39,161 nucleotides of DNA from Elusimicrobiota bacterium (GTDB taxonomy: Bacteria > Elusimicrobiota > Elusimicrobia > UBA1565 > UBA9628): contig JAPLKL010000048.1 in NCBI GenBank assembly GCA_026388095.1, positions 1-39,161 of the forward strand, in the 5' to 3' direction. This document shows positions 13,880-39,161 of this stretch, one piece after another. How positions within the stretch are numbered: position 1 is the stretch's first letter; every line of letters begins with the position of its first letter. The notes below the pieces were generated by a model. That model saw only the letters and a list, made by a program, of their open reading frames with translations, had not been told where the DNA came from and did not search any database. The position numbers and the translations under genes are program-made.

Positions 13880-14047
13880 AGGATTGTGGATATAGTGTGA
13901 ATAGGCGAACGGTGTTGTCTGTGGTGATTATTATATGTCATTAAGTATGGTCTATAAAATTTAAGAAAATAAATTAAGTCAGCGCTAAGACATATGCCTG
14001 TGGATAGACCTGTGCATGGACGCGCTTCTGTGAAGAGATTCAGACGA

Positions 14048-14141
14048 GGCGGCATATGCACATTGCTCACCCTCGGACGAGACTTCACTTCGCAGATTCT
14101 CGAATCGACTCGGATTGGGCGGCTCAAGCGCATATGCCGCC
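14048..14141. repeat. Hairpin-bounded repeat, copy A
   Basis: A 94-bp unit begins with GGCGGCATATGC (14048-14059) and ends with its exact reverse complement GCATATGCCGCC (14130-14141). Both ends are shared with copy B: the first 34 bases match copy B at about 27 positions, and 14111-14143 matches 14565-14597 at 27 of 33. The middle differs. Confidence 0.6.
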
Positions 14142-14289
14142 AGTTTTAATTTCAATGGGATCCCTTTTGTGTTTTTTCCGACGGTGAGCCGGTATGGGCG
14201 GCCCCCCGTCTTCTTCGCCGGCCTTCTGATTTCCTTGACGGCCTCCCGTTTCCCTCACATTTTCAAAAAATTGTTATTTATTTTGCAGC

Positions 14290-14321
14290 GCTATTCGCAT
14301 CGCGCGCGCGATGTGAATAGC
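14290..14321. repeat. Strong palindrome
   Basis: GCTATTCGCATCGCG (14290-14304) pairs with CGCGATGTGAATAGC (14307-14321). The single departure becomes a G-U pair in RNA. The hairpin core is an alternating CG tract. It is not followed directly by a T run, so it is not a standard terminator. Confidence 0.55.
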
Positions 14322-14448
14322 ACCGATATTTCCAGCGTTATTTTTCTAAAAACGTAGGACCATCTGCCCTCGCATGACGCTCGATTGCGCCTCATTCGTA
14401 CTTGCAGGAGAGGCGCTCATCCATCAGACACTTGTCGGACACGACCGG

Positions 14449-14597
14449 CGCGGCACATGCGCATCGATCACCATCGGACCAGGCTTAGTCGTCGAGAAAA
14501 GATGACGGGGACCGTGGTCCGCGCCCTCGGATCGATACCTCTCGCAACGGGCATCGTGAATCCCCGGATTGGGTGACTGAAGTGCATATGCCAGCAG
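14449..14597. repeat. Hairpin-bounded repeat, copy B
   Basis: This diverged copy of the 14048-14141 element has ends that still pair: GGCACATGC at 14452-14460 against GCATATGCC at 14584-14592, with one mismatch. Its middle is about 50 bases longer than copy A and contains its own small palindrome GGACCGTGGTCC near 14509-14520. Confidence 0.55.
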
Positions 14598-14800
14598 ACG
14601 AGCAGCGAGGTTGTCCGGTCGGGGGCGGTCTCCGGGGCTATTTTGGTGCCAGGAAAAACAGTTTAAACGTGCTTTCTGGGGTTTAAAATGAGGCTGTTCT
14701 TATTGGTCTACCCCCCTTCACCGGCCATTCTCCCGAATTACCTGCCAAAGGCGCCTTCTGGGGCATTTTCGGGGCTTCCAGGCCTACGGCAAGGATTGGT

Positions 14801-16267: not shown

Positions 16268-16531
16268 CTAGCGGTAGATCTCGCGGCGGTGGCCTATGTC
16301 GAGTACGTAGACCAGCAGGCGCTGCGCGAAGACCGCGTAGATGATCCGGTAGGGGCCCAGCCGGTAGCTGCGTTTGCCGGCCAGTTCCCCCTTGAGAGGC
16401 TTGCCCAGAAAGGGGTCCTGTGCAAGCTCGCGCAGGACTTGGTCTACGCGGTCGAAGAGCCTCCGGTCCCTCTGGTGCAGCCGCTGATAGACGCCGCGGG
16501 CCGCCGGCGAGAGTTCGATTCTATAGAGCAT
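16268..16531 (-). CDS. RelE/ParE-family toxin
   Basis: This 87-residue toxin of a type II toxin-antitoxin pair opens MLYRIELSPAARGVYQRL and carries the RelE-superfamily core (LKGELAGKRSYRLGPYRIIY, about 46-65) and C-terminal HRREIYR. RelE members cleave mRNA in the ribosome; ParE members poison gyrase. The basic residues near 54-62 and 82-87 favour a RelE-like role, but this is not decisive. The start at 16531 has GGGAG just upstream and overlaps the antitoxin gene by 11 bases; an in-frame ATG at 16552 is less likely. Confidence 0.85.
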   Translation of the reverse strand: MLYRIELSPAARGVYQRLHQRDRRLFDRVDQVLRELAQDPFLGKPLKGELAGKRSYRLGPYRIIYAVFAQRLLVYVLDIGHRREIYR

Positions 16532-16793
16532 CGAGCTCCCGGCGTACTTCATCGAGCGAACGGGAACGTCCCGCTCGGAGGTCCGCCTCGGCCTGTTTGA
16601 GGCGTTTGACGGCGGGCTTGTCGGAGAGTATCTCCAGGGTCTCCAGGAGGCCTTCGTAATCGTCTAGGCCCATGATGACGGCCGCGGGCTTGCCGCGCCT
16701 GGTGACGATGAAGCGGTCCATCTTCTGGTCGATGGCTTGCATGACTTGGGGCAGTCTGGGGCGCAGCTCTTTGAGGGTGATGTGGCGGGTCAT
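16521..16793 (-). CDS. Phd/YefM-family antitoxin
   Basis: This 90-residue antitoxin opens MTRHITLKELRPRLPQVMQ and continues through DRFIVTRRGKPAAVIMGLDDYEGL, the Phd/YefM DNA-binding fold. The charged C-terminal part (about 55-90) would wrap and neutralise the toxin. The ATG at 16793 has GGGAGG six bases upstream; an in-frame ATG at 16808 lies on the other side of that site and is rejected. Antitoxin-first order with overlap to the toxin is typical. Autoregulation is likely through the palindrome in its promoter. Confidence 0.88.
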   Translation of the reverse strand: MTRHITLKELRPRLPQVMQAIDQKMDRFIVTRRGKPAAVIMGLDDYEGLLETLEILSDKPAVKRLKQAEADLRAGRSRSLDEVRRELDAL

Positions 16794-16809
16794 TGTGGCC
16801 TCCCGCATT

Positions 16810-16955: not shown

Positions 16956-16991
16956 ACAAAACCCCCTGCGGCAAGCCGCAGGGGGTTTTGT
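16956..16991 (-). terminator. Strong (bidirectional) intrinsic terminator of the porin gene
   Basis: A perfect 17-bp stem (16956-16972 with 16975-16991) has the core CCCCCTGCGGC/GCCGCAGGGGG flanked by A4 and T4. It lies 16 bases after the porin stop. The symmetric A/T tails let it work in both directions. Confidence 0.85.
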
Positions 16992-31129: not shown

Positions 31130-31765
31130 ATGCTTTGGCTGATGCTGTCGTTGCTTCTCTGGGTCTGTCCCGCGCGGGGCCAGGAAACCGATGGGTCCGC
31201 GTCCGAGGAGCAGCCCGCCGCAGAGAAATCGGCGGCGCCGGCCGCGGATACGGAGCAGCCCGCCGCGGAGGAATCGGCGCAGCCGGCCGCGGGGGCTGAG
31301 CAGCCCGCCGCAGAGGAACCGGCGCAGCCGGCCGCGGAAGCGGAGCAGCCCGCCGCAGAGGAAACGGCGCAGCCGGCTGCGGAAGGGGAGCAACCCGCCG
31401 AGGCGTCCCCGTCGGACGCGGAAGCTGCCCCAGCGGGCGGCGACACCTACTCGGCCGATGAGCTGACCGCCCCTGCGGGCGAGGCGGAAAGCGCGGCTGC
31501 GGCCCAGCCGGCCGTCAAGGCCAAGACCGCCGCCGCCAAGCCGGCCGGCGGGAAGAAGGCGCTGTCCGCAGGCAAGGCGAAGGCCAAAGCCAAGAAGAAG
31601 CTAGCGGGGAAGCGCAAACCGGCGGCCAAGAAGGGTTCTGCGGCTTCAGCGAAAAAGGGAGCGGCCGCCGCCGCCGGCAGTGTGGCGTTACTCAGCCCAA
31701 AGCCTGCCGCTCCTGCGCCCCCCCCGCCCGTGCCGGCCACACCGGTGGAGCCGTACAACCCTTAG
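31130..31765 (+). CDS. Secreted Ala/Pro/Lys-rich repeat protein
   Basis: This 211-residue protein has a signal peptide (MLWLMLSLLLWVCPARG, cleavage near 17/18). Four 15-residue repeats of the type EQPAAEExAQPAAxx (residues 27-86) follow, then a short acidic stretch. A basic Lys/Ala-rich block (about 126-178, KAKAKAKKKLAGKRKPAAKKG) resembles histone H1 tails, and the C-terminus is proline-rich. The acidic first half and basic second half make it strongly bipolar. No enzymatic fold is expected; it may bind envelope polymers or nucleic acid outside the inner membrane. Its stop overlaps that of the converging batE gene (TTAG at 31762-31765). Confidence 0.6.
   Translation: MLWLMLSLLLWVCPARGQETDGSASEEQPAAEKSAAPAADTEQPAAEESAQPAAGAEQPAAEEPAQPAAEAEQPAAEETAQPAAEGEQPAEASPSDAEAAPAGGDTYSADELTAPAGEAESAAAAQPAVKAKTAAAKPAGGKKALSAGKAKAKAKKKLAGKRKPAAKKGSAASAKKGAAAAAGSVALLSPKPAAPAPPPPVPATPVEPYNP
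31208..31387 (+). repeat. Four 45-bp tandem coding repeats
   Basis: In-frame units begin at 31208, 31253, 31298 and 31343, each starting GAGCAGCCCGCCGC, followed by a partial fifth unit at 31388. Units two to four are the most alike, so the array probably grew by duplication. Confidence 0.8.
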
Positions 31766-36106: not shown

Positions 36107-36173
36107 AGGTGCCGGGCTTTGACTTTTGTTCTATTGAACTTTCCTTAGAGATAAAAGTCAAAGCCTGGCACCT
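36107..36173. repeat. Palindromic element 1 of the Bat operon
   Basis: The 21-bp arm at 36107-36127 (AGGTGCC, then GGGCTTTGACTTTT) pairs with 36153-36173 with one G-U-compatible mismatch. The element is 67 bp and lies between batA and the batB-C gene. It shares AGGTGCC-N3-CTTTGACTTTT with the element at 39001-39068. Confidence 0.85.
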
Positions 36174-38992: not shown

Positions 38993-39000
38993 CGAAGAAT

Positions 39001-39068
39001 AGGTGCCACTCTTTGACTTTTGACTTTTAGGGAAATTCCACAAGGTCAAAAGTCAAAGAGTGGCACCT
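39001..39068. repeat. Palindromic element 2 of the Bat operon
   Basis: A perfect 24-bp inverted repeat (39001-39024 with 39045-39068) flanks a 20-base loop, total 68 bp. Outer arm AGGTGCCACTC is followed by TTTGACTTTTGAC. The right arm overlaps two bases of the moxR stop codon. The element is closely related to 36107-36173. Confidence 0.9.
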
Positions 39069-39161
39069 AGGGGACTTCGACGCTCTCGAAGAGGGTCCGG
39101 ATGATCTCTTCGGAGGCGATGTTCTCGGCTTCGGCCTCGTAGCTCACGCGAATGCGGTGGC
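39067..39161 (-). CDS. MoxR-family AAA ATPase (C-terminal end only)
   Basis: The last 30 residues before a TAG at 39069-39067 read HRIRVSYEAEAENIASEEI and end in ESVEVP. This fits the C-terminal tail of MoxR AAA+ ATPases (lid domain end). The position just upstream of DUF58 in a Bat operon supports it. The stop codon lies at the edge of the palindromic element, suggesting insertion there. The catalytic part is outside the window. Confidence 0.8.
   Translation of the reverse strand, partial: HRIRVSYEAEAENIASEEIIRTLFESVEVP

Follow-up and report, generated by a model that had tools for sequence, protein, structure and literature searches.

A MITE-like transposon in an Elusimicrobiota genome carries a 116-bp palindrome of a dispersed family, a candidate site of an HNH nuclease

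Two related hairpins in a genome of the Elusimicrobiota are the two ends of one transposable element. They lie in the window (the whole stretch of DNA analysed here, 39,161 nucleotides long), and the element that they bound, called Y, is a non-autonomous MITE-like transposon whose cargo is a 116-bp palindrome belonging to a dispersed family. The kind of transposon is ordinary and the cargo is unusual. The explanation that best accounts for these observations jointly, and which we hold with good confidence, is that Y is a MITE-like element moved by a transposase acting in trans and that its palindromic cargo is a site of an HNH nuclease. The parts of the element are as follows.

14049 to 14594, plus strand: element Y, a 546-bp non-coding MITE-like transposon, equal in length at C48, C34 and C67, with copies found by blastn
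14041 to 14048, no strand: left target-site duplication CAGACGAG, the same 8-mer as at 14595-14602
14595 to 14602, no strand: right target-site duplication CAGACGAG, pairing with 14041-14048
14051 to 14072, plus strand: left terminal inverted repeat (TIR) GGCATATGCACATTGCTCACCC, 82% complementary to 14571-14592 over 22 nt
14571 to 14592, minus strand: right terminal inverted repeat GGCATATGCACTTCAGTCACCC, 22 nt, partner of 14051-14072
14048 to 14141, no strand: hairpin A, the left subterminal hairpin, made of the outer TIR and an inverted inner copy
14449 to 14597, no strand: hairpin B, the right subterminal hairpin, made of the TIR and an inverted inner copy
14249 to 14364, no strand: 116-bp dyad-symmetric palindrome (core type) with centre TTCGCATCGCGCGCGCGATGTGAA, matching model R1, with one dyad axis and compensatory change

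Five copies of Y were found in the genome by blastn: three full ones, in the window (C48) and at C34 and C67, and two truncated ones at C76 and C43. All three full copies measure 546 bp, and the window interval 14048-14597 is matched at C34 with 95.3% identity over 551 nt and at C67 with 91.0% over 555 nt. At C76 the A side is retained and B is missing, and the copy at C43 has lost its left end and keeps the B side without A. Used as separate probes, A found four genomic places (itself included) and B also found four. The copies are flanked by direct repeats, CAGACGAG/CAGACGAG at C48 (8/8), CAGCGCTG/CAGCGCTG at C34 (8/8) and TGGCGCTG/CAGCGCTG at C67 (6/8), and the combined score for TIR and target-site duplication (TSD) of the window copy was 19, against a maximum of 16 among 20 shuffled sequences. 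The ends of Y read GGCATATGCAC; at zero to one mismatch this pattern is confined in the draft genome to the Y copies and one chance-looking match at C43. A scan with the same end pattern saw no transposase between Y ends in the 79 contigs of the draft genome, Y1_Tnp being the transposase family looked for in the genomes. The single open reading frame (ORF) of at least 80 aa that lies mainly within Y (14115-14357, with a TTG start) has counterparts at C34 and C43, and none was called at C67 or C76. Plasmids and phages gave no match to Y, viral contigs no exact match to its end pattern, and 37 relatives no match to the A probe alone. Each end would fold into a hairpin, because the terminal inverted repeat is followed by an inverted inner copy of the end motif, and a transposase supplied in trans, which we infer, would recognize these ends and insert Y by an 8-bp staggered cut.

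The preliminary description of this region had placed A and B correctly: their right ends are 82% identical over 33 nt and their left ends about equally so, their middles are unrelated and unequal in length, and their inverted closing ends still pair, with a perfect 12-bp GGCGGCATATGC/GCATATGCCGCC in A and one mismatch in that motif in B. Its phrase "AT-rich island" is fair, the two 1-kb blocks of the window at Y having 52-56% GC and the remaining blocks 60-75%. The refuting outcome that it named, an absence of additional copies, is answered by four further copies of Y. What has to be revised is the unit. The similarity of A and B goes beyond chance because the entire interval 14048-14597 recurs as one unit; the two are thus similar without being independent copies of a repeat, and the suggested small mobile element is A, middle and B together (546 bp, with inverted ends, 8-bp duplications and paralogous empty sites). 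Likewise, conserved ends around a variable core describe A against B and not Y as a whole, for across species the common module is the middle of Y, 14249-14364, and the ends vary between carriers. The suggestion of a recombination site finds no support at A or B. That A and B are instead two independent small MITEs, jointly mobilizing the segment between them in the style of a composite transposon, would suit the closure of each by inverted TIR motifs and their being direct, diverged copies with different middles; it is nevertheless improbable, given that no solitary A or B was found, that the A-only copy at C76 and the B-only copy at C43 both retain the central segment, and that the target duplications lie outside A plus B.

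The insertion points of Y bear on its choice of target. The copy at C34 sits within another repeat, Z:

C8, 28200 to 28630, of the window's genome (G000) and other places (L371-L392): element Z, MITE-like, with 22 end matches in the genome

The ends of Z read CAATGCCGGTCACTTA and its lengths are 384-432 bp. Its duplications are of about 10 bp, mostly around CTAG (among four copies free of Y, two are identical over 10 and two match at 9/10), and its cargo is a palindrome of the CAGCGCTG type. All ten other aligned Z copies lack Y and have a single central CAGCGCTG, and when the two flanks at C34 are put together with Y removed, the resulting 371 bp align with four full Z copies at 89-99%, in one or two pieces. 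The Z copies are therefore a direct, paralogous empty site for Y at C34, and they place the insertion at the midpoint of the palindrome. Ungapped symmetry scoring of C34 alone was not significant (p 0.16-0.30), the arms having small indels, so the evidence for this copy is that of the paralogous empty sites. Joining the flanks at C67 yields a palindrome that was equalled by none of 2000 shuffles. The left flank at C76 resembles the left arm of a CAGCGCTG-type palindrome 5' of an HNH gene in the window's genome, the right half of the palindrome being gone at this insertion. The joined flanks of the window copy are non-palindromic (p 0.78-0.90). Insertion at three of the four readable points thus looks like insertion at a palindrome midpoint, which is proven at C34 and probable for the two others, with the window copy as the exception. 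Y would prefer the midpoints of palindromes centred on CAGCGCTG or similar.

The cargo of Y, alone among its parts, occurs beyond the window's genome. When the whole element was searched in the 55 other genomes of the order, the core alone matched, in five of them. Model R1, built from 18 copies, found the core palindrome in 14 of the 56 genomes of the order and at 14 places in the window's genome. From these searches 62 sites were collected, with two contig-end matches in G042 (C162 and C187) left out, and 49 of the 62 are exactly 116 bp long. These 49 sites have one dyad axis, and along it complementarity reaches 0.88 (centre), 0.42 (middle arms) and 0.74 (outer arms). Elsewhere the centre and middle drop to background, and the A/T-rich outer arms reach at most 0.51 on near axes. 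Among 47 equal-length sites (the distant G025 sites L154 and L156 dropped), 42 of 53 pairs have changes on both sides, and the covariation score was 0.257 against a shuffled mean of 0.157, a value reached in none of 500 shuffles. The shuffle test is inflated by kinship among the sites; slid partners, a control that preserves kinship, scored at most 0.112. Mismatches in the centre were G.T 32 times and A.C 16 times, and in the outer arms G.T 38 and A.C 51 times, a distribution that does not point consistently to an RNA strand. By a crude ORF caller, 13 of the 62 sites share over 40 bp with a called ORF and the other 49 do not. Their neighbours are divergent at 17 sites, tandem at 32, convergent at 10 and undetermined at 3, so that the sites have no common transcription context. 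No neighbouring gene is common to all of them, the recurrent ones being an HNH gene cluster and a few orthologous loci. Viral contigs gave no exact match to one version of the core centre. Two other readings of these palindromes were set aside: that of terminators, against which stand the 17 divergent contexts, and that of integron attC sites, with which their single, dispersed occurrence does not agree.

The core palindrome is an independent module. It is carried between different ends by Y, by a family of about 349 bp in the window's genome (L120-L123), with duplications of 8/8 at L120, 7/8 at L121 and weaker at L122 and L123, and by a family of about 299 bp in G042. The duplication of the last was first read as 8 bp; this was replaced by a 10-bp reading, GGCCTAAACC, with Z as guide. 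In an automatic scan for TIR plus TSD at the 62 core sites, the score exceeded the best of 20 shuffles at eight (the window, L010, L120, L121, L079, L131, L133 and L137), where about three of 62 are expected by chance; the offsets of the L010 match differ from the true ends, and the matches at L131, L133 and L137 have no confirming further copies. Core palindromes also occur bare. For instance, in genus g9 one stands 5' of a HIT-family gene in G040, G041, G050, G051 and G053 and is absent from that locus in G049 and G048, where the upstream gene is retained (9 of the 16 aligned loci differ upstream and are uninformative). The bare palindrome was thus gained or lost at this locus as a unit. No offset stands out as a target duplication of bare palindromes (best 3/49). 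The gene names rsmE, HIT, era and hemW used for such loci are presumed assignments of ours from the protein sequences. As a separate observation, the core palindromes at L083 and L085 (G020) are each surrounded by a copy of a 253-bp repeat with 92% identity, possibly a further carrier.

The window has other features outside Y. Related hairpins at 36107-36173 and 39000-39069, with ends (T)AGGTGCC...TTTGACTTTT and AAAGTCAAA...GGCACCT, appear to be a further dispersed palindrome family. At 31207-31400 long ORFs overlap a tandem repeat whose unit recurs about every 45 bp. A 36-bp GC-rich inverted repeat with a terminal T-run (16956-16991) is a possible intrinsic terminator, and a gene for a Phd/YefM-type antitoxin (Pfam E 7e-16) lies on the minus strand at 16521-16808. 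Rfam found three tRNAs in the window.

The link between the palindromes and an HNH nuclease comes from gene neighbourhoods. An HNH gene cluster adjoins 8 of the 62 core sites, with the palindrome 5' of the gene in all eight (one of the eight neighbours being an 86-aa remnant), and G048 adds a ninth linked site by coordinates (9/62). Six of the nine (L082, L130, L134, L136, L151 and L152) have the same pair of gene clusters as neighbours and therefore represent one orthologous locus in six genomes; the remaining three are those of G025, of a different family, which makes about four independent loci overall. At the four HNH loci examined in the window's genome, which has six HNH matches, no core-type palindrome was found. 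The HNH family occurs in 44 of the 56 genomes of the order, and 57 of the 80 HNH loci kept in a wider scan are titled Elusimicrobia or Elusimicrobiota; the family is thus found mainly in Elusimicrobiota. Palindromes with arms of at least 9 bp lie upstream of 30 of 77 HNH genes and downstream of 9, and 2 of 77 were counted after base shuffling (one shuffle each); the 77 are those of the 80 named loci that remain when L212, L242 and L265, near contig starts, are left out. At L175, L176, L179, L193 and L248 the palindromes preceding HNH genes are framed by TTATCCAC...GTGGATAA, a frame that we take to resemble DnaA boxes.

A second palindrome family, with centre CAGCGCTG or similar and a length of about 125 bp, was modelled from ten HNH-linked copies and is found in 14 of the 56 genomes. 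The window's genome has at least 19 sites, and G005 has 57 matches over both strands, or about 29 sites, of which 20 were fetched alongside 19 for the window's genome. Among the matches listed, at least 13 second-family sites in at least 11 genomes lie just 5' of an HNH gene; the genomes G024, G027 and G029, which have such sites, stand outside the model, and G004 is inside it (as L231). In the genomes with HNH-linked core-type sites (19 sites, four genomes), centre matching within the own genome scored 21.21 against 18.38 of 26, with 8 of 720 permutations as good and L086, L133 and L135 as exceptions. In some related genomes, then, the core palindrome immediately precedes an HNH gene on its 5' side, and the centres found in one genome tend to agree with that of its HNH-linked copy; on these two grounds, a chromosomal HNH endonuclease that has a ParB-like DNA-binding domain would recognize the palindrome family as its site. 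The HNH protein probably binds these palindromes as its cognate sites.

The HNH protein itself combines a predicted DNA-binding part with a nuclease domain. An AlphaFold2 model of family member L215 (pLDDT 89.3, pTM 0.68) has a helical N-terminal domain, a strand-helix-helix segment at 183-229 that looks like a ribbon-helix-helix motif, and a C-terminal HNH domain. Of 76 usable HNH ORFs, 48 entered the structure alignment. When the L215 model was compared with known folds in a second-look alignment, the six highest-ranked rows were Noc, ParB and Spo0J over residues about 20-134, with Z 9.1-8.2; the modelled N-terminal domain resembles that of ParB, with the qualification that helical domains may score so by common arrangement. 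Foldseek with the L215 model gave no match at E 0.001 or better, the Pfam ParB model no match at E 0.1 in four HNH proteins, and a search of solved structures by sequence none for the HNH protein. Pfam assigned HNH to three of four proteins, two of them above the cut-off, and a weak DUF222 to two of four, and the invariant residues of the HNH domain are kept in the family. Named phage-family matches were all to HNH or endonuclease VII and fell in the C-terminal part; defence models gave one weak match (E 0.0035). An RNA-guided HNH element of the IscB/HEARO type was considered and rejected: six HNH-bearing loci had no Rfam match at the gathering score, and the IscB protein family reached 22.1 and 18.3 bits in two proteins (cut-off 175) and did not match a third.

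A more specific reading can be put forward as a tentative one, perhaps one chance in a few: that, in a system like REP/RAYT but with another enzyme, the ParB-like HNH protein recognizes long rigid palindromes, cuts or nicks them at the midpoint and so spreads or maintains them, with Y and Z riding along. Y (8-bp duplications) and Z (about 10-bp duplications) are, on that account, unrelated miniature transposons that both carry palindromes, and Y would additionally insert at palindrome midpoints.

Other explanations of the palindromes fare worse. It is unlikely that they are the operators of a regulon, with the HNH protein as an autoregulated transcription factor and Y spreading the operators. 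The palindrome does lie near a recurrent promoter-like motif before HNH genes, GAAC or CAAC 14-20 bases ahead of CGTA (CGTC for the CAAC variant), which was counted at 54 of 77 genes, at least one of them spurious, in a count without a control. Motifs of this GAAC/CAAC-N-CGTA/C form are typical of ECF sigma promoters. The core sites overall, however, have no preference for gene starts and few shared neighbours outside orthologous loci, and the protein retains the invariant residues of a nuclease domain. Ordinary REP elements spread by RAYT-like Y1 transposases are a decidedly unlikely identity for the palindromes. Y1_Tnp genes are common, in 44 of the 56 genomes and twice in the window's genome, and one of them, at G030 C92, the single such locus noticed, is no more than 1 kb away from a second-family palindrome; yet G042 (91% complete) and G044 (72% complete), both with several core palindromes, have no Y1_Tnp match, and neither Y1_Tnp gene of the window's genome is within 25 kb of any listed site. 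Very unlikely indeed is a structured RNA gene or multi-copy regulatory RNA, including the RNA with a closing stem that had been proposed for A and B: the core arms covary and folding energies fall under those of shuffled sequences for A (z -3.9 and -4.8 on the two strands), B (z -2.6 and -2.7) and the core copies folded, but a DNA palindrome would be expected to covary just as much, the core mismatches have no consistent strand bias, neighbour orientations are mixed, and Rfam has no match in Y or at six HNH-bearing loci.

Known systems offer partial parallels to the preferred explanation, a MITE-like Y with an HNH-nuclease site as cargo. Like bacterial MITEs, Y is short and non-coding, has inverted ends, target duplications and several copies, and is without its own transposase; TIRs, 8-bp duplications (8/8, 8/8 and 6/8), five copies and an empty site were all found. 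It differs from them in the outer and inner end repeats that would make a hairpin of each end, in its conserved palindromic cargo and in seemingly favouring the midpoints of palindromes as targets. For the palindromes, the closest analogue is the REP/RAYT system. REP and REPIN palindromes are described as tied to RAYT transposases (PMC3116915), and REP palindromes as 20-40 bp long (PMC3733652). Like them, the core palindromes are dispersed and mostly extragenic, keep their structure through compensatory change and have an enzyme gene beside a palindrome of the same family. They differ in length, 116 bp for the core and about 125 bp for the second family against 20-40 bp, and have one rigid dyad; an HNH nuclease replaces the Y1 transposase; and a positive genome has from 1 to about 29 sites. 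The target choice of Y has precedent in insertion sequences whose known targets are REP palindromes (PMC1525189). Y resembles these as a transposon favouring extragenic palindromes, and differs in that its target is the midpoint of palindromes related to the HNH-linked ones and that the inserter is non-coding and itself bears a palindrome. The ParB and Noc proteins with parS likewise have palindromic sites scattered on the chromosome, and the predicted N-terminal fold of the HNH protein may be like theirs; the differences are the C-terminal HNH nuclease domain and sites that are much longer and partly borne by transposons. Listings and abstract openings of the open-access PMC literature yielded no published HNH-palindrome system of this kind. 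Y alone would be one more MITE, and its cargo would matter more. The REP-like pattern of an enzyme gene with an upstream palindrome, copies throughout the genome and compensatory change is tied here to an HNH nuclease family; the system thereby offers a directly testable pair of protein and site, and its long, covarying palindromes form a natural collection from which to learn what a nuclease of this type reads.
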